From: Lachnospiraceae bacterium
GTDB taxonomy: Bacteria > Bacillota > Clostridia > Lachnospirales > Lachnospiraceae
Assembly: GCA_029008875.1 (NCBI GenBank)
Contig: JAQXJP010000010.1
Span: 1-64,000, forward strand
DNA: 64,000 nucleotides
Direction of reading: 5' to 3'
Below are positions 36,662-53,777 of the stretch, one piece after another (within the stretch, counting starts at the first letter, position 1; each line of letters begins with the position of its first letter). The translations under genes and the position numbers were made by a program. The notes under the pieces were generated by a model. It saw nothing but the letters and a program-made list of their open reading frames with translations, was not told where the DNA came from and ran no database searches.

Positions 36662-39600
36662 TTAGAATGCGCTCCGTCTGCGCTTTCTGGATGTGTAGAT
36701 AAAGAATGCTGCCGCAAAAAGTATCAACATAATCGCCAGACAGATTCCCACGATTACTCCCGGATGGATTCCCTCGCCGGGATTCAGTTCGGAGATATCT
36801 ACCCCCGATACATCCTCATCGGTGTAGAGGATCGCGTAGGTGGAGAACCGATCTGTCCTAATGGTAATGGTCGTTGCATCATCATCCAAATCTTCCAAGA
36901 TGGTGCAGGTTCCTTCATGATTTCTCATAATGAAGAAGGTTCGATTCTCATGATACAGATTTTCAGGAACATCCAGTACCATTTCCAGTTCTTCATTCAA
37001 TTCATGCAACTGCTCCCATTCTCCATCTCCCACTCGGCTTTCCACGATAATTTCCACGTAGCAACCAAACTCCAAGCCGTCTAAGGACTGTTCATATGTC
37101 TGGAACTGTTTTTGCATGACATTCTTATCGTCTTCCGCCACATCCTCGGTTACTCTGGCAATATAGCTTCGAACCTCCGCTGTTTTACCCGCTTGAATCT
37201 CTTCGATTTGTTCCGGAGTAAAGCAAGCAGTGAGGATATCCTGCAGATTGCCTGAGATTCTTCCGCCTTCGGATGTGGCATGGATATAGATTTCACCTTC
37301 GGAGAGCTGTACCTGTACATTTCCGGTTATGGTAATATCCGCAGCCTCTTCCACAGTCTCGATTTGTACTATCTGTGCCTCCTGTGCATCGGTTTCATTT
37401 CCGGATTCGTCCTCGGTTTCATTACTGTTGTCATCCGGTTCCGTCGCTGTTTCCGGCTCCTTCTGGGTTCCGGTGGAAGGCTTTTTGCCTGTAGTTTCGG
37501 CCGGAGTCTCCTCTACCTCTTCCGTCGGCGGAATGACCTCCGGCGTTGTATCGGAATCACTGCTTGAACTGTCGGACTGTGGCGGTGTAGGCTTCGGAAG
37601 GTTCAGGCTTGCGCCAAATCCAACCAGATTTCCTTCCTCATCCAAAACCGGCGTCAAAACCGTATAACCGCTTGCAGAAAGTTTGGTGATATAGTTTTCC
37701 TCCTCGTCCTGGGTTGTCTTATCCAGAACAATCGAGGTGCCTTTTCCACTTGGTGTAATCTTGGTGGTACTCTGTGTCGTGGTCTGGTTATTCATGGTAA
37801 GTGGCTCATTCACCACCAATCCGTTGCTTCCGGTTCCCATCGCCACAGAAAGCTTTGTGCCCTCCTTGATATCAAGCACATCACCGTCCGCTGCTTTCAT
37901 CATCTCGTAGCCGGCATCTTCTGATCCGGAACTCTGCACGGTATTGCCGTCGATGGTCATGGTCTTGGCGCCTTCCACAATCAGGGAACTGTTGGCACTT
38001 GCATTGCCATTGTCCACCAGTGTGATATCATTCGGAGCATTTACCACAAATTTTGTTTCGGCGTTGCCGGTCTTGTAGGTTTCGCTACCGATCTGTACTT
38101 CCGCGTTGGGATTCGTCACCCCAATGATTGGATTGCCGTTTTCATTTCCGATTAAGGTCATTCCACCTTCCGGAGCCGTGTAAACGGTGTCTCCCACCTT
38201 TACGGATTCTCCCGCTCCCAGATCATAACTGTAGTTTTCCTTATTGAAGCTGGAAGGATCAATGGAAGGCACACTGGCACTCTCCTCCGGCACAATGGTG
38301 CTTGTCACCAATTTTCCGGATTGTCCATTCACCGTAAGTGTTCCGTTCTGCTCTGCGGTGTATACAATTCCTCCAACCGTAATCTGCTCGCCTGCCTTCA
38401 ATGTAATTGACAAGTTTCCGGTTTCATCAATGGTAACCTGTTTGTCCTCTGTCACATCTGCAGGAACTTTGATTTCCACGCCCTTTCCTGTGGACTTATC
38501 GCCGATTGTCACATTGCCGCCTGCGGGTACAGTAACCTTGGGTTTTGCAGTCCCCGCCGCCTTTTCTACATCGATTGGCAGATTTCCGTTGGTAGAGATG
38601 GTAACACCACCCGTTGTCCCCGTCGGGAAGGTGAGATTTCCGTTAGCCAGTTCCATATTGATTCCGTCATTGGCCGTTTCTGAGTCAACCGTCACCTCTC
38701 CGGTATCGGCATTTACGGAAAGCTTATAGGTACCTTCGCTATCCTTGTTGGTATAGGTTCCGGTTCCGATTTTTAAGGTATCTCCGCAAGTGGCCTCGAT
38801 TGCGCCGTCCTCGGAAACCGTAATGCTGCTTCCGGTCTTCACTTCCAAAACGCCACCGCTCTCCTGCAAAAGGTTCACGCCGCAATTCTCCTGCGTAATC
38901 ACGGTTCCTTTTGTGAGGATGGGTCTTCCGATGTGGTCGATGGTCAATGTGAAGGACTTATCGGCCGGAGTCTTGTAGGTAACGCCGTCAATGGTAACCT
39001 CTTTTCCGGCTTCCACAGACACAGCCACGCCTTTTTCCGTCACCTTCATGGAGACGCCCTCTCCTCCGGCCACTTCTATCTCTTTTTGGCCTGCCTGAAA
39101 ACCAATGGAACTGTCCGGTCCAAGTTTGATACTTCCGTCTGTCTCAACGGTATAAGTTGCTTTGTCAGTACCCGGATTCTTAAAGGTCACTGCAGAGCCC
39201 GGAGCTCCCGGGACGGACAAGTCAAACTGTCCTTTCGCACTTACCTCAAAATCCGTTGTACCATTGTCTTTTACTTTTACAGAAACAGTTGACCCTGCCG
39301 CCCCGGAATTGGTTACGCAGACGCCATTTACATTGATGCCTTCCTTCGGTGTTTTTCCGCCGTCTAATGCTACTGCTCCCTTTTTCAACGTACTGCCGGT
39401 CTCTGTCATATTGATGAGTGTATTGTCCTCAGTTGTTGTGTATTCCATACCATTGATAACAACCTTATCGCCGGTCTCTGACAGAGTCACATCTGCGCTT
39501 CCATCCGTTTTCGGTTTTACAGAGACGCTCTCGTTCGGTGCTCCTGCCGGAACGCCAATGCTATTATGTGCCTGTTTCTTTGTAGCGCCTTCTCCTGTTC

Positions 39601-42600
39601 CCACAGTCACTTCACTATCGATGTCCACAGCACCATTTTGGGGCACGGTAATGGTTCCGTCGCTTGCCACGGTAGGAGCCTCTGTACCTTTGCTGGTAAT
39701 GGTAGCTTTTTCTTCTTCGTCAAAAAGCTCCGACTCTTCCCCATGTTCTATGGTATTGAAAATGACATCGATTGCACTGTTCTTATCCAGTTTTACAGCC
39801 CCGCTTGTCAAAGTGGGAATTCCGGTCTCCGGGTCGTACGCCAGACCTGTATCATCCGCTACTGCGGTGTAACTGCTCTTTTTGCCGTTTCTGTCTATCT
39901 CTATGATTTCGTCCTGTGAAAGTTCCACGTTGCCATCCGCATCCACGGTAGCGGAACCCTGCTTGCCGGTGATCACATCTCCACCCGCCAGGCCAAGCTT
40001 CTGTCCTTCCGGAATTTCCGTCTTTCCGCTTTCCAATATCGGAGTTCCGTCTGTGCCTACGGCAATCACAAGTTCCTCGCCGGGTTGGCGTCCACTCTCC
40101 CCGCCTTCTGTGGTGGGTCGGCCCTTGTTGACATACAGGGCGCCGTTAATCTCAATGCTACCGCCTTCGGGCGCTGTAATCTCCACGCCGTTTTCAGATG
40201 GGCAGATTGTTGCTCCACCCGCGCCGGAGCCGATGGTTGTCTGGGAATTGCCCTGCTTGAAGGTCACATCGGAATTTTCCGGAATCATCAGACTTCCGCT
40301 ATTGTCCAACTTGTAGTCGGTGGTTTCTGCCCCCGGATTGGAAAAAGTCATACTTGCCCCGGAGGTCTGATCTGTCATGGTAAATCCACCATTTTTCGGC
40401 ACTGTTACTTTTGTATTTCCGTCTTCCCCAATCGCAACTTCACAGGGATTGGAACCGGAATTCTTCACTTCTGTTCCGTTTACATTCACCTTGTCGGAGG
40501 GATTAAGATTGACTCCACCATCCATTAACTCTACGCCATCGGCACCCGGTGCCAAAACGGTATCGTCGGTGGATGCTTTGTACTCTTTTCCGTCAATGAT
40601 TACCTTATCATCTGCTTTTTGTACCGTGATGGTTCCCTCGGTGGGATCAATGATGACATTGCCCTGATTGCTTTCCGGAACCTCCACGCCGACTTTGTTG
40701 CCAAGGAAATCCACGGAAACCTCCTGCCCTTTGGGCACACTCATATCGGAATTCAGAGAGACTCCCTGATCGGACACACTAAAGTCTGCCTTCGTATCTC
40801 CCGGATTGGTAAAGGAAACCGGATCTTTTCCTTCCTCCTGATAAGTGAAGGACTTGCCGCCACCCACGCTGACTTCGGTATCTTTTCCCTCCGTCATGGC
40901 GAGCTTGATTGGCTCATCCCCGGTGTTGGTAAAGGTGACTCCATTAGAGTCGGTTACCGACTGTCCCGGTTTCAGCTCCACACCACCATCGGACACCGTT
41001 ACCTTCGGTGTTCCGTCCTTAGAAGTGGAAATATCAAAGGTGGTATCATAATCTCCGATGGTATACTCATCATCTCCTATTTTTACCTGATTTCCGGGTT
41101 CCGCCTTCACCTCCAGGCCGCTGCCATCCTCCTTCGGTGTGATTTCTGCCGGAAGGTTGGCCGGCTCGCCCTTGGGAACAGACACCTTAAACGCATCGTC
41201 GCCCTCACCGATGGTAGCCTCGGCACCATCCGGAACGCTAATCTTATTTTCGTCGTTTACCGTCACGGACTCGTTTCCGTCCGTAGTTGTGTTGGAAACC
41301 TTCTCCCCGTTCGGAAGCGTGATTGTTCCGTCCTTCGGAACCTGAACAGAGCCCTCCTCCAACTGCACTTCAGGCTTCTGCGTAGCCCCACCTTCCGTGT
41401 CGTCGGACTCACTGGGTTTGATCACCAACTTCGTAGTGTCATCGCTTGTGGTAAAGGTCGTATCACCAACCTTGATATCATTGTTGGCCTCCTCAGACTC
41501 GATTACGACTCCGCCTTCCCCTTTGCTGATGGTTGTTTTTCCTGGGTTTGTACTGCTGGTCTCAATGGTTGTCTCCTGATTCTCACCGAGAGATACCTTT
41601 AAGTCATACTCGGTTCCGTCGCTGATAATTACCTTATCTTCGGAAGTCAGTTCTCCGGAATGAATTCCATATTCCTTTTCCCCCGGACAGGTAACATAGG
41701 TTACGGAATGATTCGGGTCCCCGTCAGGACTGATGGTAATTGCGGAGGTTGGCTCCGTTGTGGTTACGGTGGCCTTGGTTACGTCATCCCCTGCCGTTAC
41801 CGTAATGGGCTTATTGGCCGTAACCTTGGCATCATCCACATCCACAGAGACGTTGCTGTCGTCCGTCGCCGGTGTTGCGGTAATCTGGCCCTTCAACAGC
41901 TCTACGGTACCGTCCGGGGAAGCATTGATCTTAGAATTTTCATCCGCCTCAATCGTCGAACCATCATTTGCAATAATGGTAACGCCTTCTTTTAGCACCG
42001 TATTGCTTCCTGTGATTTCACTGATTGCAGAACCAACCATATAAATTTTGTCGCCGGAAGCGGTATCCGCTGCCGCGATTGCTTCCGCAAGGGTACCATA
42101 TTCCGTTCTTGTACCACTTGGTTTTACAACAATCGCTTCCGGGAGTGTGTAGGTAAATAATACACCTCCAAGGTCTAATTCAATACGACGGTCCCCCTTG
42201 CTGTAATCGATTGCTGTATCCTTAAATATCAGACTCTTTATGGTATAACTTCCAATTGTGATGGTAAGGTCAACCTCTTGAACAGAATTTTTGTCTGCTG
42301 ATAACTGCAAATCATTTAAGCTTGCTTTAATATTACCGGCTTTAAAGGTTTGAGAAGCCGTATAAGAATAAATATTATATGGTCCTGCATGCTGAACGCC
42401 TCCATTACAGCACCAATAGTACCATAAACTTCCCTCCAATGCTATTTTTCCGGGGTTACAATCATCAAATCCTTGTCCTTTTTGCTGTATGGCTACATTC
42501 CAGCCACTGGAATCATTCTGATAAGTAACCAAGGCTGAATTTTTTGGAAGACCTGCAACTGCAATTGTATTACTATCCGTAGTAGTCATAGTTCCTACAG

Positions 42601-45600
42601 ATGAGTGAATCATCAACAATTTCGTTCCATAAGACGGATAACCTGTCAATTTTTTTACACCGGCATAAAGTGTTCCCGTTGCATTCGGATCCGGATCCGG
42701 TTCCTTAAACTGTGCCGTATAGACTGCATTTCCTGTAACTGTTATTTCTCTTGTTGCACTCGTATCTCCATCGTTCCACTGGGCAAACTGATAGCCAGAT
42801 GCAGGTGTTGCTTTAATCGTAACCGTACTGCCCACTTCATATTTTCCACCTGAAGCGCCTGGAGAAGAAGCTGTTATTGCTGCCGTTCCCCTAACATTAT
42901 TAGAAGTCCCAACGGAAATACTATACTTCTTTTTCGTAAATTCTGCTGTATATTCATAATCGTTTGTCGCTGTAAAGGTATATATCAAATCAGGACTTAC
43001 AATCCTTCCAGTTTTAACATCCTTCCAGCCTGTGAACTCATATTCCTCTGCATTCGTAAGTGTTGCTTTTAACGTAACCTGTGCATTATATTTTACAGTT
43101 GTATTGATTGCCGTCGTACTTCCGGCTCCGGTTCCGATTGCAACCGTACCCGCCATCTCTTCTGTGGCTGTACTAAGTTTTACATTCTCCGGTTTTACAA
43201 CAATCGCACAGTTTGCTTTCGGTCCAACCACATAATAACTTACAGCATTTGGTTGCCACACCGCATAACTGGAATTTGCAGCACTGTAAAACTTCTCCAT
43301 GCTGATTGCATTAGAAGTAAACTGCACCGGTACAGTCATTGTAGGTGCTGTCGCAGTTTCAATTCCGATTCTGCTTCCAGTCAGCGTGTTATTTACATTG
43401 ATATAGTTGGTACTATTGTTTCCAACATAAATATCTGCTGCACGATTCGTGCTAAAATTCACGGCACCACCAATATAAAGTCTACCGGCTCCTGCATTTC
43501 GGATTCCATACGCCTTGTAGCCGGAATTTCCGGAAATGGTACCGCCGGTCATGGTAATCACACCGCTGTTATTGTAAATGCCCGCATTTTTGCTATTGAC
43601 AATGGAGCCACCGGTCATGGTGAAGCTCGTTCCCCTGCTTGTGGAGCCACCGATGTACACACCGTAATTGGCACCATCAATAGCACCGGATGTCATTTTG
43701 ATTGTTTCACTATAGCCGGAATTGCAATAGATACCATAGGAGAAGGATCCGGTTACACCTCCGCCCAGAATCTGAATTTCCGCTCCGTTTGTAGCATATA
43801 TTCCATAGGTTTCGCTTCCGCCTCTGCTTATGGCACCTCCCTTGAGGAACACCTTTGCCCATGAGCCGCTTGCATAAACGACGTAACTGCTATTCGGTGC
43901 CGAAATGGTACCGCCACCTCTTGTATCGTGGATATATACGTAACCATCCTTGACATCGATGGCAGGCTTCCCGGATGCCCCATAAATGTGATGTCCGTTC
44001 AAGTCCAGATTCAATGTCTGTCCGTTCTTTAAGTACAGTCTGTCCGAATTGGAGTAGATGCTGCGCCTACTAATCTCAATATCATCCGCCAGCTTGATGT
44101 TAACTGTTCCGGACTTGCTGTATACCGCTTTGTACAGACTGGTCCAGGAAGATACCAGCTTATAGCTTGAGAGTCTACAGGTACACGTGTAGAGGGAAAA
44201 ATGCTCCGGATTAAAGGATAAATCCTCTCCCTCCACGCTCGCATTCATGGCCTGGGCCGTTTCCATGGCATCGTCAATATAGTACACCTCCATGGTCTGC
44301 TCTGTATCAGTCTCTTCCCCTGCATCTTCCACCGTGAGTTCAGGAACTACCTGCCGGAAGGTAACCGTTACCGCATCCTGAGCACTCATTCCCTCCGGAA
44401 TCTCCGGTTGGATTTCCTTGCCCTTCTTATCCAACACCGTGATATCAAAGGTGATGGTCTTCTCCACTATGTTCTGGCTTTCCTCATCCCCGCATGCCTC
44501 ATCCAGATTATTCTGAATTGCATTCTCAATTTTCGCGATGCTGGCCTCATCTTCCACTTTCGTCACGGACAGGGTCGCGTCTTCCGGAAATACGCCCGGC
44601 GCGGCTGTCAAGGTAATGGCAATATCATCCACTGTCTCAGACAGACAAAGTGTGGTAGGCTCCATAACCTGCACCTTGATGGTCAGAGCTGCGATTCCGT
44701 CGGTATGCACCTCGTACCCGTCATAGGTTGTAGGAAGTTCCGCTGTAAAAATATATTCTCCCGGTGTCTTGCCGTCATATTCCGCACAATTCCAGGTAAG
44801 CGGAAGCTGCACGGTCTCTGTCCGCACATACTGCGGAGTTCCTGCTTCTTTGGTGCCATCTGCACCCTCAACCTCTGTAGCTTCCTCTGCCGCCTCCGGA
44901 GTCTCGGTTGCTGTGATTTCCTCGGTTGTTCCCGCGGTTGTCGCCTCATTTGTCCCGGCTTCCCCTGCTGTATCGGTTCCCGCTGCAGCATCGGAAGGTG
45001 TCGTGGTCTCCCCTGCCGTTGGAACAGTTGTCTCCGGTGCATCGGTTGTCCCGGTAGGTTCCGTCACGCCCTGTGTATCCGTATTATCCGCTGATGAAAG
45101 TACGTTCTCATCCTGGGTGGAATTCTGGCCGTCCGCCCCATCCGGCACTGCGGATTGTACAACAGGAACGTCCACTGCCTCCACCTCTGCTGCCGGAAGC
45201 TGCTCCTCCCCGGCTGCTCCTGTCTGCTCCGAAGGAAGCTGACCTGCATCGGTTCCGTCCACCGCTGTCTGCTCCGCGATTTCAGAGGATGCTTCACCCG
45301 CTTCCACTGCCTCTATACTGTAAAAATCCAAGATTGCCGTCACAGATTCCGGCAAAGGAACATCGCTCTTGTCGGTTCCATAGGACACGGTGACGGTATC
45401 CTCAACAGACTCCAGCTCCGTCAGTTCATAAAATCCCTTTTCTCTCTGCGTCATGGCAAAGGCTGTCAGGTCAATGCTCGTAATCACCAAGGCCGCTGTC
45501 ATCACCAACGCCACTGCTTTTGCAAAGCGCTCCTGCACGCGCAGTCCAATTAACGCATACAAAAACAGATTGTATACGAAAATGAATACTGCCAAAAATG

Positions 45601-45742
45601 CAAGCATTGGGTAGCGCAGAAGCTTGTGTTTTCTACCAAAGCCCGCCAAAACATGTATGGTTTCCTTTTTGGCGGCACGGAACGGTTCCATTGCCTGATA
45701 CACTTTTTCATACCGTTCTTTGCTTAATTGTCTTTTGTTCAT
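36662..45742 (-). CDS. Giant cell-surface protein of 3026 residues with beta-helix and tandem modules
   Basis: Order seen: a cytoplasmic-like start of ~45 residues; two hydrophobic stretches (about 48-70 and 78-100) that may act as a long export signal; a Thr/Ala/Glu-rich region (150-310); beta-sandwich-like part; a parallel beta-helix (about 600-770, repeated TMTGGxI and xGIYxxxG turns); two InlB-type repeats (about 875-1020, ending AEFTKK and AQFKEP); about ten related modules (1230-2640) sharing [IV]-[DNG]-G-x-x-Y-x-[TA], VPKxG and F[TS]NPG; a Pro/Thr/Glu linker; a conserved C-terminal domain; a membrane segment and SRKRRRSAF. No sortase motif. The inferred role is adhesion or a surface fibre. 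Start 45742 has GGAGGG 8 bases upstream. Three TTGTCCC boxes precede it. Confidence 0.85.
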   Translation of the reverse strand: MNKRQLSKERYEKVYQAMEPFRAAKKETIHVLAGFGRKHKLLRYPMLAFLAVFIFVYNLFLYALIGLRVQERFAKAVALVMTAALVITSIDLTAFAMTQREKGFYELTELESVEDTVTVSYGTDKSDVPLPESVTAILDFYSIEAVEAGEASSEIAEQTAVDGTDAGQLPSEQTGAAGEEQLPAAEVEAVDVPVVQSAVPDGADGQNSTQDENVLSSADNTDTQGVTEPTGTTDAPETTVPTAGETTTPSDAAAGTDTAGEAGTNEATTAGTTEEITATETPEAAEEATEVEGADGTKEAGTPQYVRTETVQLPLTWNCAEYDGKTPGEYIFTAELPTTYDGYEVHTDGIAALTIKVQVMEPTTLCLSETVDDIAITLTAAPGVFPEDATLSVTKVEDEASIAKIENAIQNNLDEACGDEESQNIVEKTITFDITVLDKKGKEIQPEIPEGMSAQDAVTVTFRQVVPELTVEDAGEETDTEQTMEVYYIDDAMETAQAMNASVEGEDLSFNPEHFSLYTCTCRLSSYKLVSSWTSLYKAVYSKSGTVNIKLADDIEISRRSIYSNSDRLYLKNGQTLNLDLNGHHIYGASGKPAIDVKDGYVYIHDTRGGGTISAPNSSYVVYASGSWAKVFLKGGAISRGGSETYGIYATNGAEIQILGGGVTGSFSYGIYCNSGYSETIKMTSGAIDGANYGVYIGGSTSRGTSFTMTGGSIVNSKNAGIYNNSGVITMTGGTISGNSGYKAYGIRNAGAGRLYIGGAVNFSTNRAADIYVGNNSTNYINVNNTLTGSRIGIETATAPTMTVPVQFTSNAISMEKFYSAANSSYAVWQPNAVSYYVVGPKANCAIVVKPENVKLSTATEEMAGTVAIGTGAGSTTAINTTVKYNAQVTLKATLTNAEEYEFTGWKDVKTGRIVSPDLIYTFTATNDYEYTAEFTKKKYSISVGTSNNVRGTAAITASSPGASGGKYEVGSTVTIKATPASGYQFAQWNDGDTSATREITVTGNAVYTAQFKEPDPDPNATGTLYAGVKKLTGYPSYGTKLLMIHSSVGTMTTTDSNTIAVAGLPKNSALVTYQNDSSGWNVAIQQKGQGFDDCNPGKIALEGSLWYYWCCNGGVQHAGPYNIYSYTASQTFKAGNIKASLNDLQLSADKNSVQEVDLTITIGSYTIKSLIFKDTAIDYSKGDRRIELDLGGVLFTYTLPEAIVVKPSGTRTEYGTLAEAIAAADTASGDKIYMVGSAISEITGSNTVLKEGVTIIANDGSTIEADENSKINASPDGTVELLKGQITATPATDDSNVSVDVDDAKVTANKPITVTAGDDVTKATVTTTEPTSAITISPDGDPNHSVTYVTCPGEKEYGIHSGELTSEDKVIISDGTEYDLKVSLGENQETTIETSSTNPGKTTISKGEGGVVIESEEANNDIKVGDTTFTTSDDTTKLVIKPSESDDTEGGATQKPEVQLEEGSVQVPKDGTITLPNGEKVSNTTTDGNESVTVNDENKISVPDGAEATIGEGDDAFKVSVPKGEPANLPAEITPKEDGSGLEVKAEPGNQVKIGDDEYTIGDYDTTFDISTSKDGTPKVTVSDGGVELKPGQSVTDSNGVTFTNTGDEPIKLAMTEGKDTEVSVGGGKSFTYQEEGKDPVSFTNPGDTKADFSVSDQGVSLNSDMSVPKGQEVSVDFLGNKVGVEVPESNQGNVIIDPTEGTITVQKADDKVIIDGKEYKASTDDTVLAPGADGVELMDGGVNLNPSDKVNVNGTEVKNSGSNPCEVAIGEDGNTKVTVPKNGGFTMTDQTSGASMTFSNPGAETTDYKLDNSGSLMIPENSDVTFKQGNSQTTIGSGAGGATICPSENGVEITAPEGGSIEINGALYVNKGRPTTEGGESGRQPGEELVIAVGTDGTPILESGKTEIPEGQKLGLAGGDVITGKQGSATVDADGNVELSQDEIIEIDRNGKKSSYTAVADDTGLAYDPETGIPTLTSGAVKLDKNSAIDVIFNTIEHGEESELFDEEEKATITSKGTEAPTVASDGTITVPQNGAVDIDSEVTVGTGEGATKKQAHNSIGVPAGAPNESVSVKPKTDGSADVTLSETGDKVVINGMEYTTTEDNTLINMTETGSTLKKGAVALDGGKTPKEGINVNGVCVTNSGAAGSTVSVKVKDNGTTDFEVSAKGQFDLSVPGAPGSAVTFKNPGTDKATYTVETDGSIKLGPDSSIGFQAGQKEIEVAGGEGVSMKVTEKGVAVSVEAGKEVTIDGVTYKTPADKSFTLTIDHIGRPILTKGTVITQENCGVNLLQESGGVLEVKTGSSITVSEDGAIEATCGDTLKIGTGTYTNKDSEGTYKLSVNADTGEVTVDSETANDGINMELANGNLTFPTGTTGGVTISTNGNLPIDVEKAAGTAKPKVTVPAGGNVTIGDKSTGKGVEIKVPADVTEDKQVTIDETGNLSITLKAGEQITVGGIVYTAEQNGTLTVNGQSGKLVTSTIVPEESASVPSIDPSSFNKENYSYDLGAGESVKVGDTVYTAPEGGMTLIGNENGNPIIGVTNPNAEVQIGSETYKTGNAETKFVVNAPNDITLVDNGNASANSSLIVEGAKTMTIDGNTVQSSGSEDAGYEMMKAADGDVLDIKEGTKLSVAMGTGSNGLVVNEPLTMNNQTTTQSTTKITPSGKGTSIVLDKTTQDEEENYITKLSASGYTVLTPVLDEEGNLVGFGASLNLPKPTPPQSDSSSSDSDTTPEVIPPTEEVEETPAETTGKKPSTGTQKEPETATEPDDNSNETEDESGNETDAQEAQIVQIETVEEAADITITGNVQVQLSEGEIYIHATSEGGRISGNLQDILTACFTPEQIEEIQAGKTAEVRSYIARVTEDVAEDDKNVMQKQFQTYEQSLDGLEFGCYVEIIVESRVGDGEWEQLHELNEELEMVLDVPENLYHENRTFFIMRNHEGTCTILEDLDDDATTITIRTDRFSTYAILYTDEDVSGVDISELNPGEGIHPGVIVGICLAIMLILFAAAFFIYTSRKRRRSAF

Positions 45743-45835
45743 ATGCATTTCCCTCCAAATACCGCATATTCTATCGCCGATACTTTGAATGAATCTTCAT
45801 CTCTTCTAAGGGCATGGATATCCATGCTTTCCATT

Positions 45836-45881
45836 ATCTTATCATTCCGAATGGGACAACAATGGGACAAAAGAGGGACAA
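45836..45881 (-). promoter_or_regulatory. Three 11-bp-spaced TTGTCCC boxes and -10 of the giant surface protein gene
   Basis: On the minus strand TTGTCCC occurs at 45881-45875, 45870-45864 and 45859-45853, exactly 11 bp apart. After another 11 bases comes TAAGAT (45841-45836), preceded by TGA, i.e. an extended -10. No -35 box is seen, as expected if an activator on the boxes recruits RNA polymerase. The outermost box also forms a small GGGAC/GTCCC hairpin at 45875-45888 that may help end the preceding transcript. Confidence 0.7.
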
Positions 45882-45899
45882 AAGTCCCAAAAAACGATA

Positions 45900-48416
45900 T
45901 TATTTTTTCAAAATGCGATGTCTTCCGACAAATAATCCCGACAAAACTGCAACAGTACTCAGCAAAAGGAATGCCCACAGCATCAGAGCATCGTCCTCTC
46001 CTGTCTTTGGCGATTCCAGTGTGACAGACCCATTCTCCGACTGGTTTGGTTCCTCTGACTGTTCGGGATTCTCGAATTCCGTCGGATTCTGTGAAGAGCC
46101 TTGCTGTGTATTCCCGCTATCATTCCTTGGAATATTAACGGTAATGACACAGATAACGGTATTTCCTTCCGCAGTGGTTCCTGTTATCGCACAGGTTCCG
46201 TTTCCAACTGCAGTTACCTTTCCGTTCCCATCAACAGTAGCAATACTGGGATCGCCGGATACCCAGCTGATGATTGCGCTCCCGGATGTGATGATGTCCG
46301 TCAAGTCCATCGTTTCTCCGGCGCCATTCAGCGTTCGGCTCACACTTCCGGAAAATCTTGCATAGTAGGTATTCACTTTCTCCTTCACTTCGGTATAGCT
46401 ATATGTTTCGTTTGTGGAAATCAAGTTGCCGTCATTATCATACCAGCCCAAAAACCGATATCCCGTTGCGGCAGTCGCCTTGACGGTTACGGTTTCGTTC
46501 GTTGTGGCATGGTAAGCTTTCCCACCATTTGCGTTAAATGTAGCATTATAATTGGGATTTGATGCATCTGTGACACTTGTGATCTCCAAAGTTCCGCCAC
46601 TTTCCGAATTCACACATGCGCTATCGCTGCTCAATTGCGGAATGAACGCCTGTCGCCAACGCCACTGTGCTACCAAAACAAGTCCTTTGTGGGCATTGGC
46701 ATAGGAAACCACCGAAGTCCCCCCTGGTTCCCAAGTTGCCTTCGTTGCATTGCCGCTCGTATTCGCTATTTGATCGACTCCTCCATTCCATATTTTAAAA
46801 TCCTGTGCCGTTCCACTCGTCGAATAATCACAGGCTATCGTATGTGTTGCCGGGAGCACCAATGTCCCCAATTGTTCGGCATTGACCGGTGATATTCCTA
46901 CCGGAGTATTACCAGAATCACCGGTCAATAGCCAACCCATAAACTTCCATCCGTCATTTTGACCTTCCGCCGCATGGGACACATAAGGAGAAATAAATGT
47001 AAGGTTTTCCCCATCCGCAACCGGTTTGAAACTATATACATTCGCCGCCTCCGAAGTATTATAGGTTCGTTCAACCGTGTACGGTTTTCCGCCATTTGCA
47101 TCATAGGTTACCGTGGGACTCTTGATAAAGACGAATTGCAGATCCGTTGCAGAAATCAGATTGTCAATATTCTTGGTATAAACAGTATCTCCTTCCGAAT
47201 TTGTTGTTACCGTCCACTCGGATTTTTGAAAAAACACAGTCTGCGGATTTCCGCTTGCATCCTGCTTTGTATAGTACATTCCAACAAATTCACATCCGGC
47301 AGCCGCATCGGCACTCTTTACAACTGCCTTAACTTCAATGGATTCTCCATCTACTGCATATGTCATCAGTTTTTTCTCTGGAGTAACTGTATTACTCTCT
47401 TCTCCGACCACTCCACTTCCATGGAGGGTTGTACTTCCTGATAATGGATAGTAAATCCGAAAATTTACATTATCAAGGAAGTTTCCATAAGTTTTTTGTT
47501 TGTTGACATCTACTGTAGAGCCATCGCATCCTACAGAAACGAATCCAAACAGTGTTTTCTCTTGATCTCTCGGTACAGTATAGAGATAATACTTACTCAT
47601 ATCTATTGCTGTATTACCAGATTCATCGGTTCTTATGGCAGATCCTTCTGCATTGGAACCATATTTGCTCCATGGATTTTCGGTCATGCCACTTGCCGCC
47701 TTACTGTCCGCCATAATCCAGATATGCCATTCCTCAGTATAAACAGTGCTTGGAATCAGACTAAATGCATTATTATCTGCATTATCCTCAAACCCACCAC
47801 TTGCTGCGAATTTTTTGCTGTAAACAATAAGTTGTTCTCCTAATCCCGCACTGGTTTTTACTGAAGTCTCTCCCTGATCAATCAGCCAGTCTATCATCTG
47901 CATGAACTGGTCTCTTCCATCAGCACTTGGTTTTGATGGACTAACAGTCTGTGCAGGTCCAATCACAAGTGCCATGGTATCCGTACCATTACGGGCACCA
48001 TGATCCAATCCCCATTCGTAGATACTGGATGGTGTTGTACTGACAGTCTGATATAAGGTACTTTCTTGTTCTGCATTCAGCTCCGCGGCAACACTTCCTT
48101 CTGTAGGAGATAATGTTATGCCGGTAATATATTTCGTATTTGTTTTTAACAATTCAATTTTTCCATCCGTTGCTGTGGTATTCCATGCAGAAACCAAACT
48201 TTGATCTGGCTGTGCATAGTAACCATCTTTCCACGTTATGCTACTATTAAAGTCCTCAAAACTGCCATTCTGCAGTTTTCTGTTATCTGTTTCATCTGCA
48301 TATGCGATCCCCAGGTTTACACCTGTGCTCATGCCCATAATCAGGCAGAAACCCAACAAAAAGATAAATATTTTGAGAGCCTTAAGACTTTTCTTTTGTT
48401 TTTTTGTGCCACACAT
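45900..48416 (-). CDS. Secreted repeat protein with SPKTG cell-wall sorting signal
   Basis: 838 residues. A signal peptide (KIFIFLLGFCLIMGMSTGVNLGIAYA) is followed by a jelly-roll-like N-terminal domain starting LQNGSFEDF (about 40-320), then beta domains with the InlB/MucBP flavour (VTYDANGGKPYTVERTY, ATGYRFLGWYDNDGNLIS), and a bacterial Ig-like (Big_2) domain (about 695-765, ISWVSGDPSIATVDGNGKVTAV). The end is a Ser/Asn/Glu linker, SPKTG near residue 803, a 19-residue hydrophobic stretch and RHRILKK. SPKTG matches the (S/P)PxTG type recognised by clostridial class B sortase; no sortase gene is in the window. AGGAG is 9 bases upstream. The inferred role is adhesion or matrix formation, co-regulated with the giant protein. 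Confidence 0.85.
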   Translation of the reverse strand: MCGTKKQKKSLKALKIFIFLLGFCLIMGMSTGVNLGIAYADETDNRKLQNGSFEDFNSSITWKDGYYAQPDQSLVSAWNTTATDGKIELLKTNTKYITGITLSPTEGSVAAELNAEQESTLYQTVSTTPSSIYEWGLDHGARNGTDTMALVIGPAQTVSPSKPSADGRDQFMQMIDWLIDQGETSVKTSAGLGEQLIVYSKKFAASGGFEDNADNNAFSLIPSTVYTEEWHIWIMADSKAASGMTENPWSKYGSNAEGSAIRTDESGNTAIDMSKYYLYTVPRDQEKTLFGFVSVGCDGSTVDVNKQKTYGNFLDNVNFRIYYPLSGSTTLHGSGVVGEESNTVTPEKKLMTYAVDGESIEVKAVVKSADAAAGCEFVGMYYTKQDASGNPQTVFFQKSEWTVTTNSEGDTVYTKNIDNLISATDLQFVFIKSPTVTYDANGGKPYTVERTYNTSEAANVYSFKPVADGENLTFISPYVSHAAEGQNDGWKFMGWLLTGDSGNTPVGISPVNAEQLGTLVLPATHTIACDYSTSGTAQDFKIWNGGVDQIANTSGNATKATWEPGGTSVVSYANAHKGLVLVAQWRWRQAFIPQLSSDSACVNSESGGTLEITSVTDASNPNYNATFNANGGKAYHATTNETVTVKATAATGYRFLGWYDNDGNLISTNETYSYTEVKEKVNTYYARFSGSVSRTLNGAGETMDLTDIITSGSAIISWVSGDPSIATVDGNGKVTAVGNGTCAITGTTAEGNTVICVITVNIPRNDSGNTQQGSSQNPTEFENPEQSEEPNQSENGSVTLESPKTGEDDALMLWAFLLLSTVAVLSGLFVGRHRILKK

Positions 48417-48447
48417 TTATTTTGCTCCTAATTTACGAAATCGTTTC

Positions 48448-48482
48448 ATTTTACAACACGATATAGGACAAAAAAGGGACAA
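48448..48482 (-). promoter_or_regulatory. Two 11-bp-spaced TTGTCC[CT] boxes and -10 of the SPKTG protein gene
   Basis: On the minus strand TTGTCCC (48482-48476) and TTGTCCT (48471-48465) are exactly 11 bp apart. After 11 bases follows TAAAAT (48453-48448). The geometry is identical to that at the giant gene. The outer box touches the T run of the regulator gene's terminator. Confidence 0.7.
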
Positions 48483-48524
48483 AAAAAGTGGGAAAACTCG
48501 CGATTGCTCATTTTCCCACTTTTT
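48483..48524 (-). terminator. Terminator of the two-component regulator gene
   Basis: A perfect 14-bp stem AAAAAGTGGGAAAA/TTTTCCCACTTTTT with a 14-base loop lies 2 bp past the stop codon and ends in T residues. It separates the regulator gene from the surface-protein promoter. Confidence 0.9.
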
Positions 48525-48525
48525 C

Positions 48526-49332
48526 TCATTCCCTATTCGATATTTCCACAAATCTGCCAATCATTCCCTCTGCCCAACTGTACTGGCTCATGTATTCCCC
48601 TTGGAAAAGGTTGATGGCATAGGGCAGTCCCTTCAGATAGTCCGCCGCATCGCAACTTACCTTGCTGATGTCCACCCCGTACAGATTCCTCCCTTTGATT
48701 AATATATCCTCCGCATGAATGCTCTGAAGCGTCGTCCGGAGGCTTCGGTAAATCTTGCTGAGATAATCCTGGGTTTTCAGGTCGTATTCCTGATTTTCAA
48801 ACAGGATGGCGGCAATCTCTTTTCTCGTCACTGTTGCCCCGCCTCTGCTGACCAGATATGCCAGGAGTTCCTTTGCTTTCGATCGTTCGAATTCCACCGG
48901 CTTCCCGTTGTACAGCACCTCAAAATTGCCGAAGGTTCGGATGACCAGTTGGTGGCTATCCGCAAGAGGATGAAGCAGATTATCCATTTCCTGCGCCACC
49001 TGCTCTGCCCTCACCGGTTTCGTCAGATAGCCACTGGCATGAATAGAAATTGCCTGCCGCATGTATTCCGAATAACCTGTCACAAAAATTATATTAATCT
49101 TCGGAGAAATTCCTTTTAGTTTTCTGGCCAACTCCAGCCCCGTCATTTCCCGCATTTCAATGTCGAGGAATGCGATGTCCACCGGGTTATCCCGGGCGTA
49201 CAAAAGCGCCTGTTCCGTGCTTCGGAAGCCTTCCAACTGCAATTCACACTTTCGCGCTGAAGTTGCCTCCCGAATGGCATCCATCAAAACGGAAAGCGCC
49301 GCATGTTCATCATCTACCGCAATAATATGCAT
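48526..49332 (-). CDS. Response regulator with SARP-like output domain
   Basis: 268 residues. Residues 1-120 are a receiver domain with D7/D8, phosphoacceptor D57 (AFLDIEM) and the lysine in YLTKPV. Residues about 128-268 begin VIRTFGNFEVLYNGKPVEFERSKAKELLAYLVSRGGATVTRKEIAAILF, the winged-helix start of SARP/AfsR-type activators, and end with a short BTAD-like helical part (YAINLFQGEYMSQYSWAEGMI). SARP proteins bind direct heptamer repeats 11 bp apart near the -10 box and recruit polymerase; such repeats lie before both downstream surface-protein genes. It follows its histidine kinase by 32 bp. Confidence 0.85.
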   Translation of the reverse strand: MHIIAVDDEHAALSVLMDAIREATSARKCELQLEGFRSTEQALLYARDNPVDIAFLDIEMREMTGLELARKLKGISPKINIIFVTGYSEYMRQAISIHASGYLTKPVRAEQVAQEMDNLLHPLADSHQLVIRTFGNFEVLYNGKPVEFERSKAKELLAYLVSRGGATVTRKEIAAILFENQEYDLKTQDYLSKIYRSLRTTLQSIHAEDILIKGRNLYGVDISKVSCDAADYLKGLPYAINLFQGEYMSQYSWAEGMIGRFVEISNRE

Positions 49333-49364: not shown

Positions 49365-51107
49365 CTATTGATTCTTTGGTATCATAATGGTTGCTGTGGT
49401 TCCTTTTCCCGGTTCACTGGAGATGTCAAGTGTAGCATGGCTCATCTCCCACAGTCGGCTTCTCACATTTGCGATGCCGATATGGGTTTTTCCATCCTCC
49501 GCTTGCTGATTCACATCAAATCCCACTCCGTTATCCGCGACAATCACCTCGTAACAATCCTCTTTTTCCCGGGTTCCGATAACTACGGTTCCTCCGCTTG
49601 GCACTTTCCCGACACCGTGTTTCACCGCATTTTCCACCAGAGGTTGTATGGTCAGGGAGGGAATGCGAAAATCCATGGTCTGTATGTCATAGGTTATCTG
49701 CAGTTCTTCTTCAAAGCGCATCTTCTCCAGCGACAGGTAAATCTTGATGTGCTTCAATTCCATCTCAAAAGGTACCGGTGTCTTCTGCTTCAGGGAATCC
49801 ATGTTGCCCCTCAGGTAGTCTGCGAAATCGTTAATCGCCCGCTTTGCCCCATCCGGATCTTTCCCGCACAGATAGGCGATGCTGGTTAAGGAATTATACA
49901 GAAAATGGGGCTGAATCTGGCTTAACATAATAGAGACCCTGCCTTCCATCAATTCGGCTTCCTGCTCGGAAAGCTTTTTCTCCCACTCAATATAGCTCTT
50001 AATGATCCCAATTCCCGTCCACCACACATAAATCTGGAAGGCAAGCAATGAGAAAAACAGGTCCACAGAGTTGCCTTTGACGTAATAGGCGACCACATCC
50101 ATGGCGATTCCCACCACGCAAATCCACAGGATTTTGCCATTTTTGCTTTTCTTATATTTGATTCTGTCATATACCGCTATGGAGATGGTAAGCAGTATTC
50201 CCAGAAGAATCAGAACATGTATGATGATGAGATTCTCTCTGATATCTGCAAGTCCAAGCATTTGCGCCGCAAGCACAAGCAGACATACCACCGAGCTTAG
50301 TACGCAGAAAATATCTAACAGCATATAGTCCTTTTCATAGAGGAATGTCTGCAGCATTTTTAAAAGGGGCACTACTCCAACCATCAGCATGGTTACCGAC
50401 AGGTAAAAAAGTAAGGTTGCATTTGCCGGAAACAATATGGGTGAAAACCAGGTATCCGTCAGCCTCCAGATTCCCAGCATAACCGAAAATGCGCCAAGCG
50501 CCCACAGATTGCTCTTCTGCTTTTTGGTAAGGATATGGTAGCAGGCAATTCCCAGAAAAACCAGGCCAATCAAAATCGAAACCAAGCTGAGGCCAATCTG
50601 CCAACCGTCTTTTTTTGCCTGCATTCGGACAATCCCAAACTTCGACCCTTCGTAGAAGGTTATCGTCCGGTTGACCGAGGTTTGATACACCGGAATCACA
50701 TCCACCTGGACCTGCTTTTCCGCATCCTCCGCAAAAAGAGGAACCATTGCCCAGTCACATCCCAGTGTCTTTCCAATCCGCTTTTCATCCGCAGGAAATG
50801 CGCGATATATCAGCTCATCGTCCAGGTACACCTTCACATATTGGTGTACATAATAAAATGCCAGGGAGGTATCCCCTTCGATAGACTCCGGCAATGTCCA
50901 TGTGTACACCTTCCTGATTCCAAGGGGCGTATCCGCATCCGCCACATCCTGACATTGGTACTCGTCTACAGTCACCAATCCAAGATCGTTTCTTGCCTGA
51001 TATTCATCTTTCTTTTCGTTGACTCCGATCAAAAGAAGCAACACTGTCACCCCCACAAGTGTGAGAATATACAGTACTGTTGCCGCTCTCTTCATTCTCT
51101 TATGCAT
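49365..51107 (-). CDS. LytS/YehU-class sensor histidine kinase with 7TM-DISM-like sensor
   Basis: 580 residues. A first membrane segment (about 8-27) and an extracellular ~140-residue beta domain (VYLDDELIYRAF, like the 7TMR-DISM extracellular region) precede about seven membrane segments (170-375). The His_kinase region has MLSQIQPHFLYNSLTSIAYL with the phospho-accepting histidine near residue 401, and an ATPase domain (PLVENAVKHG, VADNGVGF, GIGIANVRSRL-type). It should phosphorylate the adjacent response regulator on an extracellular cue, possibly a carbohydrate, which is inferred from the sensor class. It lies 42 bp downstream of metH and may be partly read through from it. Confidence 0.88.
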   Translation of the reverse strand: MHKRMKRAATVLYILTLVGVTVLLLLIGVNEKKDEYQARNDLGLVTVDEYQCQDVADADTPLGIRKVYTWTLPESIEGDTSLAFYYVHQYVKVYLDDELIYRAFPADEKRIGKTLGCDWAMVPLFAEDAEKQVQVDVIPVYQTSVNRTITFYEGSKFGIVRMQAKKDGWQIGLSLVSILIGLVFLGIACYHILTKKQKSNLWALGAFSVMLGIWRLTDTWFSPILFPANATLLFYLSVTMLMVGVVPLLKMLQTFLYEKDYMLLDIFCVLSSVVCLLVLAAQMLGLADIRENLIIIHVLILLGILLTISIAVYDRIKYKKSKNGKILWICVVGIAMDVVAYYVKGNSVDLFFSLLAFQIYVWWTGIGIIKSYIEWEKKLSEQEAELMEGRVSIMLSQIQPHFLYNSLTSIAYLCGKDPDGAKRAINDFADYLRGNMDSLKQKTPVPFEMELKHIKIYLSLEKMRFEEELQITYDIQTMDFRIPSLTIQPLVENAVKHGVGKVPSGGTVVIGTREKEDCYEVIVADNGVGFDVNQQAEDGKTHIGIANVRSRLWEMSHATLDISSEPGKGTTATIMIPKNQ

Positions 51108-51149: not shown

Positions 51150-53630
51150 CTACTCTGCCAGTAAACGCTCCACCAACTTCACGCAGTCCGCCGCATCCTT
51201 GGAATACCCGTCGGCTCCGATTTCATCCGCGAAGCTCTGGGTAATGCAAGCTCCGCCGATGATTACCTTGCTCCGGCAGCCCTTCGCCTTACAGATTTCT
51301 ATCACATCCTGCATGCGCATCATGGTGGTGGTCATAAGCGCGGAGAGCCCGATAATCGCCGCATTTTCTCTCATGGCGGTCTCCACAATATCCTCGCAGG
51401 GCACATCCTTGCCCATATCGATCACTTGGTAGCCGTAATTTTTCAGCATCAGCACCACCAGGTTCTTGCCGATATCGTGGATGTCCCCCTCCACTGTGGC
51501 GATGACCAGGGTGGGCATGTCCTCCCCATTCCCCTTTCGCTCCATAAGGGGCTCCAAATAATCGATGGCCTGCTTCATGGTGTTGGCACTTCCGATTAGC
51601 TGGGGGAGGAAATATTTTTTCCGGTTGAACAGTTCTCCCACCTCGTTGATGGCCGGAATCAGATATTGATTGATGATGTCATCCGGGGTCATTCCCTGAT
51701 CCAACACCGCTTTTACATTGTCCAGAACCGTTCCTTTATTGCCCTTTAACACATCCACAAACACCGGATGGGTCTTTATGGACTCGTCCACCAAGAACGT
51801 AGCGCTCTCCTCCTGCCCTGGTGCCTCCTTTGTCACAGTATCCGCTAACACCACAGGCTGTGGTTTTTTCTGTTCCTCTTCCCGTTTCTCCGCCAGCATA
51901 TTCATACGCTCAATGTAGCGGATGTCGCTTTCCGGACGATTCATCAGCATATCCGAAGCAAACGCCGCATTCATCAAAAGCTCCTGGGAGGGATTGGCAA
52001 TGGCCATGGTCAGACCCTTGCTGATTGCCATGGTCAAAAAGGCGGTGTTGACATAGATCCTCTCCGGCAGTCCGAAAGAGATGTTGGAAAGTCCGCAGAT
52101 GGTGGGAAGTTTGCGAACCTCCTTACAATAGGAAATCGTGTCGTAGCACTCTCTCGCCGCGTTGGGGTTGGCACCGATGGTGGCAACCAGACCGTCCACC
52201 ACAATATCCTCGTGGGCGATTCCCAGTTCCATCGCTCTGGCATATACCTCCTCAATGATATCCTGCTTCTGTTGTGCGTTCTCCGGCAGTCCCGCATCGG
52301 ACAGGGGAAGAAGGATGAACATGGCTCCGTATTTCGCGGCCAGAGGCAACAGTTTGTCCACCTTCTCCGATTCCAGGGAGATGGAGTTGATCAATGCCCG
52401 CCCCGGATAGATGCGGAGCGCTTCCTCGATGACATCCACATGGCTGGAATCAATGCAGAGGGGACAGTCCACGGTGGAGGAAACCTCGTAGATGACCTTC
52501 TTCATCATCTCCAGCTCATCGATTCCGTTCATGCCCATATTGATATCCAAAATCTTGGCGCCGTTCTCCTCCTGCTCCATGGCCATCTGGCGCACAAGAT
52601 CCAGTTTTCCCTCTTTCAATTCCGCTTGCAATTTCTTCTTGCCCGTGGGGTTGATGCGCTCACCCACCACAAGGAAACCATCGTCCAGGGTGATCTCCAC
52701 ACAGGCGCGCTCGGAGGTCAGAATTCTCCTGTGCCGCTCCAGCGGCTTGTGCAATTCCATTCCTCTCACAGCCTCGCTGAGAGCCTTGATGTGGTCCGGT
52801 CTGGTTCCGCAGCATCCGCCCACAATGGCAGCCCCCGCCTGAACCAGCGCGACTCCCGCCTTGGCAAACTCCTCCGGGGTCATGCGGTAAATGGTCTTGC
52901 GTCCCTCCAACTCCGGAAGTCCCGCATTGGGTTTCGCCAGAATGGGGATGGTGGCGTACTCCGCCATCTGCGCCACAATGGGCACCATCTCCATGGGGCC
53001 GGTGGAACAGTTGATACCGATCACGTCAACACCCAGAGATTGCAGCACAACAACCGCCGTCTTGGGCTCCGTTCCAAACAGAGTTCGCCCGTCCTCATTG
53101 TATGTCAAAGAAACCATAATGGGCAGATTGCTCACCTCGCGAATGGCAAACACCGCGGCCCTGCACTCCTGAAGGCTCATCATGGTCTCCACCACAAACA
53201 GATCCACACCGACTGCAGCCAACACACTTGCCTGCTCCTTGTAGACCTCCACCAACTCCTCAAACATCAGGTCCCCCAGCGGGAACAACTGCTGTCCGGT
53301 CATGGTCATATCACCCGCCAGCAGAGCCTTATCGCCCACCGCTTCCCGGGACAATTGCACCAACTGGGTGTTCATCTCCACCAACTGATCCTGCAATCCG
53401 TATTCTGCCAATTTGATGCGGTTTCCGGTGAAGGTCGGTGTATACACGATGTTGCTTCCCGCTTCCACATAACGCCGCTGCAGATCGATCATCACGTCCC
53501 GATGTTGTAATATCCACTGTTCCGGGCACACTCCCATTGGCATACCCGCCTCCATCAAATTGGTTCCGGTAGCGCCGTCAAGTATGACCGGTCCCTGTTC
53601 GATTATCTTTTTCAATTCCTGTTTTGTCAT
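51150..53630 (-). CDS. metH: Cobalamin-dependent methionine synthase, short form
   Basis: 826 residues. Domains in order: homocysteine-binding barrel (DGATGTNLMEAGMP; zinc ligands in INCSTGP and GGCCGTRPDHI), methyl-tetrahydrofolate-binding pterin domain (GERINPTGKKK...DINMG), cap domain and B12-binding domain with VEGDIHDIGKN (the DxHxxG cobalt-ligand histidine). It transfers a methyl group from methyltetrahydrofolate to homocysteine. The C-terminal SAM-dependent reactivation domain of the E. coli enzyme is missing, as usual in Clostridia, where a separate protein does this. GGAG precedes the start at 53630; 36 further upstream codons are unsupported. No B12 or SAM riboswitch is recognised upstream. 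Confidence 0.92.
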   Translation of the reverse strand: MTKQELKKIIEQGPVILDGATGTNLMEAGMPMGVCPEQWILQHRDVMIDLQRRYVEAGSNIVYTPTFTGNRIKLAEYGLQDQLVEMNTQLVQLSREAVGDKALLAGDMTMTGQQLFPLGDLMFEELVEVYKEQASVLAAVGVDLFVVETMMSLQECRAAVFAIREVSNLPIMVSLTYNEDGRTLFGTEPKTAVVVLQSLGVDVIGINCSTGPMEMVPIVAQMAEYATIPILAKPNAGLPELEGRKTIYRMTPEEFAKAGVALVQAGAAIVGGCCGTRPDHIKALSEAVRGMELHKPLERHRRILTSERACVEITLDDGFLVVGERINPTGKKKLQAELKEGKLDLVRQMAMEQEENGAKILDINMGMNGIDELEMMKKVIYEVSSTVDCPLCIDSSHVDVIEEALRIYPGRALINSISLESEKVDKLLPLAAKYGAMFILLPLSDAGLPENAQQKQDIIEEVYARAMELGIAHEDIVVDGLVATIGANPNAARECYDTISYCKEVRKLPTICGLSNISFGLPERIYVNTAFLTMAISKGLTMAIANPSQELLMNAAFASDMLMNRPESDIRYIERMNMLAEKREEEQKKPQPVVLADTVTKEAPGQEESATFLVDESIKTHPVFVDVLKGNKGTVLDNVKAVLDQGMTPDDIINQYLIPAINEVGELFNRKKYFLPQLIGSANTMKQAIDYLEPLMERKGNGEDMPTLVIATVEGDIHDIGKNLVVLMLKNYGYQVIDMGKDVPCEDIVETAMRENAAIIGLSALMTTTMMRMQDVIEICKAKGCRSKVIIGGACITQSFADEIGADGYSKDAADCVKLVERLLAE

Positions 53631-53777
53631 AATCCGCTCCATTGTATAAATCCTATTCATATACACCGATAAGTATAGCATTCCCATACCTTTTTTTCCA
53701 AACAATTTTTCATAAGACACAACTTCGTTTTCCCGCAACTTCTCCTTCTCTTCCTGCGCCCCGGATTCTGATAAAAA

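Follow-up and report, generated by a model that had tools for sequence, protein, structure and literature searches.

Regulators of LytTR systems use tandem direct repeats, and the response regulators of COG3947, named the 'SAPR family', are composed of a receiver and a SARP-like winged helix. Members of COG3947 have been recorded in 8.4% of 628 species, and the accessible portion of that survey gives no DNA site for them (PMC7046781). In SARP sites, according to PMC10936776, one protomer occupies each 11-bp repeat just upstream of the -10 element, a poor -35 being tolerated, and the activator AfsR uses two 11-bp repeats centred at -29.5. The pho box is likewise described (PMC2648988) as a series of 11-bp repeats, each of which combines a 7-bp word, CTGTCAT, with 4 bp. 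Here we describe two promoters in a 64,000-nucleotide stretch of DNA from a Lachnospiraceae bacterium (assembly GCA_029008875.1, contig JAQXJP010000010.1, positions 1 to 64,000 of the forward strand; hereafter the window), each carrying an array of the heptamer TTGTCCC or TTGTCCT before a gene for a predicted surface protein, next to the genes for a LytS-class kinase and a receiver-winged-helix regulator. From the sequence comparisons presented below we hold with good confidence that this kinase-regulator pair activates the two surface-protein genes via the TTGTCC arrays; very probably, the arrays function as promoters served by the adjacent regulator, in the manner of SARP or PhoB sites.

The two promoters, designated after the giant gene and the SPKTG gene that follow them, contain the following elements.

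45875-45881, minus strand: giant-gene heptamer 1, TTGTCCC, also the 3' arm of a GGGAC-TTTT-GTCCC hairpin
45864-45870, minus strand: giant-gene heptamer 2, TTGTCCC, kept in the nearest relative
45853-45859, minus strand: giant-gene heptamer 3, TTGTCCC, CTGTCCC in the nearest relative
45836-45841, minus strand: giant-gene -10, TAAGAT, with an extended -10 TG (TGA-TAAGAT)
48482-48525, minus strand: strong terminator-like hairpin (RNA fold -23.6 kcal/mol, z -5.9)
48476-48482, minus strand: SPKTG-gene heptamer 1, TTGTCCC, read in the sequence
48465-48471, minus strand: SPKTG-gene heptamer 2, TTGTCCT, read in the sequence
48448-48453, minus strand: SPKTG-gene -10, TAAAAT, 31 nt 5' of the 838-aa open reading frame (ORF)

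Before the giant gene three TTGTCCC heptamers follow each other at steps of exactly 11 bp, and the last is separated by 11 nt, ATTCGGAATGA, from TAAGAT, which lies 87 nt 5' of the ATG of the 3028-aa ORF; before the SPKTG gene two heptamers at a step of 11 are followed by 11 nt, ATATCGTGTTG, and then TAAAAT. Re-reading of the coordinates gave exactly the steps, gaps and -10 hexamers that the first-pass annotation of this DNA had reported, and its statement that a -35 box is missing was borne out by a sigma-70 scan of both window promoters, in which neither TAAGAT nor TAAAAT takes part in a -35/-10 pair. Since the strong terminator-like hairpin stands between the regulator gene and the SPKTG array, directly 5' of the array, the SPKTG gene probably needs its own promoter. 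As separate observations on the giant-gene region, the GGGAC-TTTT-GTCCC hairpin (window 45875-45888, minus strand) is followed by a short T-rich tail and is possibly the terminator of the SPKTG gene, and the 5' leader of the giant gene holds a palindrome around CATGGATATCCATG (window 45809-45830).

The proteins concerned are encoded by the following genes.

49365-51107, minus strand: LytS-class membrane sensor kinase, 580 aa (Pfam PF06580 His_kinase E 2e-20, HATPase_c 5e-12)
48526-49332, minus strand: response regulator, 268 aa, with a receiver, an OmpR/SARP-like winged helix and a conserved GEYMSQYSWAE tail
45900-48416, minus strand: target gene 1, predicted surface protein of 838 aa with Big_2 and InlB B-repeat-like (Flg_new_2) matches
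36662-45748, minus strand: target gene 2, predicted membrane-attached surface protein of 3028 aa with InlB B-repeat-like (Flg_new_2) matches

The assignment of a LytS-class kinase and a receiver protein in the earlier reading agrees with the Pfam matches PF06580 and PF00072 (Response_reg, E 1.3e-18 for the window regulator, with D57 invariant in the family alignment). Its placement of the two in the 'next operon' needs a small correction as to position, for both lie upstream of the two targets on the same strand, with the hairpin before the SPKTG array. In 73 of the 89 loci checked, the regulator gene has a relative of the kinase gene next to it in the same orientation. The Trans_reg_C match of the window regulator is weak (E 0.019; 15.4 bits, under the 26.2 cut-off). 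Among 47 relatives of the regulator (E<=0.1) all carry Response_reg and 39 match Trans_reg_C, at best with 1.6e-5. BTAD is absent from the families listed for these 47 members (25 of the 30 families matched at E<=0.1, each of the other five matching at most one member), and the protein extends only some 45 residues beyond the winged helix; no LytTR output domain is found among the five Pfam families that the window regulator itself matches at E<=0.1. A profile of the C-terminal part gave weak matches in the PDB to DrrB (E 0.0065), AfsR (0.024) and EmbR (0.061), while NCBIfam models searched against 18 C-terminal parts (E<=1) matched as AfsR in 9 (best 0.0018) and as PhoB in 3 (best 0.00038). 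Judged by its predicted domains, the regulator is related to the OmpR/SARP winged helices but does not belong to the SARPs.

The accuracy with which these arrays mark the two promoters was examined in the 2.63-Mb assembly, which is 93% complete. The lone heptamer TTGTCCY appears at chance frequency (23 in the window versus 21.5 expected), and was accordingly rejected as a signal by itself. The pair TTGTCCY-N4-TTGTCCY occurs three times in the assembly, as overlapping pairs and all at the two window promoters, versus none for the backwards control. When the paired motif plus -10 was searched with up to three mismatches, the two window sites were the only ones with 0 mismatches, none had one and five had two; since the 117 sites in all differ little from the 96 of the control, the sites beyond the two exact ones are mostly chance. 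Thus the whole-genome search for the spaced motif gave no exact occurrence beyond the two promoters, and because both arrays are the only exact sites in the genome, the regulon probably consists of just the two adjacent surface-protein genes. A chance origin of the arrays is rejected by the 11-bp period, the distance to the -10 and the genome-wide controls.

The orthologous promoter also keeps the array. In the nearest relative, an uncultured Agathobacter (Lachnospiraceae; genome G045), the regulator is 81% identical and the next gene again encodes a giant protein, of at least 3288 aa. Its promoter retains boxes 2 and 3 (TTGTCCC, CTGTCCC), the 11-nt gap and the extended -10, box 1 being degenerate (TTCTCC) and the flanks less conserved than the boxes.

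The same layout recurs widely among loci of related regulators. In a first set, the best 80 of 262 such loci, TGTCC pairs peak at a distance of 11 bp (16 matches in 13 loci, versus 0-8 matches at other distances from 5 to 39), and TTGTCC-N5-TTGTCC-N12-TANNNT with up to two mismatches scores highest in the period-by-distance grid, with 15 matches in 8 loci, the next having 7. De novo hexamer repeats preceding TANNNT upstream of genes (79 loci) gave 32-47 per bin for period 11 at spacings 8-13, versus 3-16 for the other periods tested. As units of unequal length inflate periods 13-15, an equal-length test (units at least 7/11 identical, GT core) was applied to 102 loci, a set that takes in the window, L128 (included because it matches TTGTCC) and 11 loci whose genomes had given pattern or control hits, and leaves out regulators under 150 bits (L146-L151): period 11 yielded 41 sites in 30 loci and each other period from 6 to 22 at most 6 sites, and core dinucleotides other than GT gave at most 15 sites (for TT). 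In 58 further loci period 11 gave 17 sites in 14 loci, and the other periods from 7 to 16 at most 2.

These family-wide results bear on a trivial origin of the repeats, namely that they are by-products of the terminators or T-tracts ending the upstream genes. Indeed, box 1 of the giant gene forms the 3' side of a hairpin, and the T-tract after the strong hairpin contains the start of the SPKTG array; yet boxes 2 and 3 and the -10 gap are kept in the relative, and the layout recurs with other words before promoters elsewhere. The period and the -10 distance seen across the family largely dispose of the terminator explanation, and we give it practically no credit.

For the promoter elements themselves we used 42 sites, the 45 found at >=6/11 identity minus three with TAATCT (L064, L066 and L076; shifted registers), of which L064 may be genuine. 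The unselected fourth and fifth bases of the -10 are A in 36 of the 42 each, versus 1008/2710 and 1006/2710 in background TANNNT, and an extended -10 TG precedes 21 of the 42 versus 243 of the 2710. The mechanism that we propose is as follows: the LytS-class kinase, to judge from the domains, would phosphorylate the receiver-winged-helix regulator; regulator protomers would then bind side by side on the TTGTCC boxes upstream of the -10, one per 11-bp repeat, that is, one DNA turn; and the bound protomers, as the geometry suggests, would replace the missing -35 and recruit RNA polymerase, like SARP AfsR and PhoB. It is unlikely, and still the most serious of the alternatives, that the regulator binds the arrays and represses, the boxes covering the RNA polymerase site, the extended -10 providing basal transcription and the signal lifting repression. 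Such an extended -10, present at 21/42 sites, could start transcription without a -35, and sequence alone does not tell activation from repression; against repression, the distance from array to -10 is fixed in many loci, as it is in the activator AfsR (PMC10936776), and the scan lists no -35 to compete for.

The recognition helix of the regulator was placed by alignment to AfsR.

48727-48777, minus strand: recognition-helix codons, residues 186-202, KTQDYLSKIYRSLRTTL, with Y190 and K193

The box word varies with this helix: YxxK goes with TTGTC(C/T), YxxN with TTGTG(A/T)C, helices without Tyr190 with TTGTTG, and YxxQ with TTGTAAG or TTGTCAT. When regulator columns were compared with box base 5 over 24 clusters, residues 150, 193 and 190 came out on top, and the score of 193 was reached by none of 2000 shuffles. 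The association of K193 with C at base 5 was 5/1/1/17 on the 24 clusters (Fisher p 8e-4) and 4/1/1/8 on 14 clusters (p 0.023). When the helix is excluded from tree building, K193 must have changed at least 4 times, and L128 (YLKK, TTGTCCC) stands near L095 and L046 (YLKN, TTGTGAC). In the profile alignment, with residue numbering counted by hand, K193 lies opposite T88 of AfsR, which contacts bases, forming a hydrogen bond to G-36(t) or A-25(t) of the repeats (PMC10936776); box base 5 is at -26, at most 1 bp from the AfsR contact, if the -10 is assumed at -12 to -7.

The helix-box rule was fixed before the 58 new loci were scanned, the base being taken as the majority of the downstream units. 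These were 58 of the 67 listed regulator places, the nine omitted having been used before or, in the case of G103, having the same look as L043. The right base was predicted in 8 of the 10 loci that had both an array and a prediction (shuffle p 0.0016). When these were narrowed, after the fact, to the 6 loci whose two units both contain a TGT core, the rule was right in all 6. For four loci that have arrays the rule made no prediction, a fragment in L237 that lacks the helix was excluded, and L181, whose regulator is identical to an earlier one and yet has no array, is not in the 8/10 count.

Co-occurrence in genomes points the same way. A full-length regulator is present in all nine family genomes that hold the exact TTGTCC promoter pattern, versus three of the nine control genomes (G107, G191, G381), G409 among the controls having a match in the receiver only; the base rate was 49 of 150 sampled family genomes, with fewer candidates scored per genome. 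A K193 regulator is found in 8/9 pattern genomes versus 38/102 of the regulators in general. The site and the regulator are on one contig only in the window's genome and G150, and on different contigs in 7 of the 9. It is quite improbable, in view of these data, that the neighbouring regulator is a bystander and that another OmpR/PhoB-type regulator of the same cell, for instance PhoB/PhoP, reads the boxes. PhoB boxes do share the 7+4 layout and have the similar word CTGTCAT (PMC2648988), but the exact sites are found nowhere else in the genome, unlike those of a global regulon, the box type tracks the recognition helix of the regulator at the same locus, and the regulator is in 9/9 pattern genomes. 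Genome exclusivity, the promoter of the relative, recurrence in the family and helix covariation together lend computational support to the first-pass proposal that this regulator reads the arrays of both surface genes.

Several observations weigh against activation of the two genes through the arrays, or against its extension to the family. The exact pattern was found 12 times in 9/397 family genomes and the backwards control 9 times in 9, and these counts were rejected as proof, being informative only jointly with regulator presence. Among the pattern genomes, G192 and G253 have K193 without Tyr190, for which the rule predicts T, not C, and G362 has no K193; since K193 is missing in G362 and the G253 site lies inside a gene, the pattern sites in these two genomes may be chance. 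The helix-box rule has an exception in L136 (YLSK with a TTGTAAC array), its two misses, L228 and L238, both have poor boxes, and one of the three arrays of L236 has T versus the predicted C. High covariation scores are also reached by residues outside the helix (150, 156 and 84), with 150 first of all by z, which implies that shared ancestry contributes to the signal; many inner branches of the helix-less tree are poorly supported, and its starred branches offer a single independent pair (all branches together, 4), which does not suffice for a test. In 68 of the 102 regulator loci the scan at >=6/11 picked up no canonical array, and these comprise each of the 12 loci titled as actinobacterial and each of the 6 titled as Treponema; 14 of the 24 K193 loci of the 80-locus set have no TGTCC pair at 11 bp. 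The family must, as far as such scans can tell, also use other spacings, distant targets or other words. Signal peptides, judged by a crude hydrophobicity rule, are not significantly enriched behind arrays (15/29 versus 292/717 neighbours, p 0.16).

As to the genes under predicted control, the 838-aa protein ends with an SPKTG sortase-type motif followed by a membrane tail, whereas the 3028-aa protein ends with a membrane segment and a basic tail, no sortase motif being seen by eye at its C-terminus, unlike its neighbour. The genome has four sortase matches, none on the window's contig. Eight of eight large proteins downstream of arrays match Flg_new, Flg_new_2, Big_2 or Cna_B (L056 below cut-off), these having been picked by hand, so that no rate can be drawn. 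The greater length of genes behind arrays is of marginal significance (median 536 versus 373 aa, p 0.044). Arrays stand before the regulator gene itself in L050, L051, L094 and L143, which suggests autoregulation. One regulator gene, that of L143 (8521-9297 with its upstream region), is preceded by two arrays in succession whose words differ, one of TTGTCT and one of TGCAAC repeats; this suggests cross-control by a second regulator. Elsewhere, L131 9341-10661 (genome G192) has two TTGTCC promoters before two similar 69-aa ORFs with no assigned function, and TTGTGTCC arrays in L105 (9063-9794) and L109 (8970-9677) face away from the regulator, toward a gene with a receiver-like start as judged by eye. 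In the window, a cobalamin-dependent methionine-synthase-like gene (51150-53738, minus strand; S-methyl_trans, Pterin_bind, B12-binding) ends 42 nt upstream of the kinase gene.

The first-pass annotation had called a site of this form 'in a clostridium' notable; the host belongs to Lachnospiraceae, not to Clostridium, and the locus is no lone oddity, being one member of a widespread regulator family. We lean, by a narrow balance, toward a large gut-bacterial regulon class, in which LytS-class kinases would act on receiver-winged-helix activators of -35-less promoters with 11-bp TTTGTnn arrays, and in which the specificity might be readable from sequence (Y..K to C, Y..N to G, no Tyr to T), because the recognition-helix residues 190 and 193 would set box base 5. 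If this is true, regulons, in several cases of giant InlB/Big/Cna-repeat surface proteins, could be predicted from the regulator alone. About one in three of the family genomes sampled (49/150) carries a member of this regulator family, and we found no report of its DNA sites in the accessible portions of the literature surveyed. What is new, on the sequence comparisons made here, is the operator layout seen across the family, together with a likely code that links helix and box in the winged-helix regulators paired with LytS-class kinases; the class of mechanism is already known. The operator layout and the helix-to-box rule would make orphan systems predictable regulons, would indicate which gut-commensal surface proteins are under signal control, and would supply natural variants for studying specificity change in OmpR/SARP winged helices.

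Compared with the described systems, the locus combines features of three. With the LytS/LytTR systems it shares the kinase class PF06580, but its output domain is winged-helix-like, with no LytTR match. With PhoB/OmpR it shares a receiver joined to a winged helix and the 7+4 repeat layout, and it differs in a winged helix under the Pfam Trans_reg_C cut-off, in a LytS-class partner kinase and in a box that varies among family members. The SARP proteins AfsR and ActII-ORF4 resemble it in a winged helix that looks related (the profile matches AfsR and EmbR weakly), in 11-bp repeats near the -10 and in the position of K193 versus the base-contacting T88; the window regulator differs from them by its receiver and LytS-class kinase partner, with no BTAD found, by hosts that are Lachnospiraceae and relatives, not actinomycete antibiotic clusters, and by the box TTGTNN, often with an extended -10. 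The label 'SARP-type' given in the earlier reading is thus apt for the way of working and not for membership, as no BTAD was detected in the 47 members and the 7+4 layout is also that of PhoB sites. The SARP definition places the 3' repeat 8 bp from the -10 (PMC10936776), and in the window the last repeat lies 8 bp from it if the unit is the 11-mer TTTGTCCCATT, or 11 bp if the unit is the heptamer TTGTCCC. Direct repeats 11 or 22 bp apart near the -10, by which SARP-type sites are recognized, are present in the arrays of the window and in those of the family.

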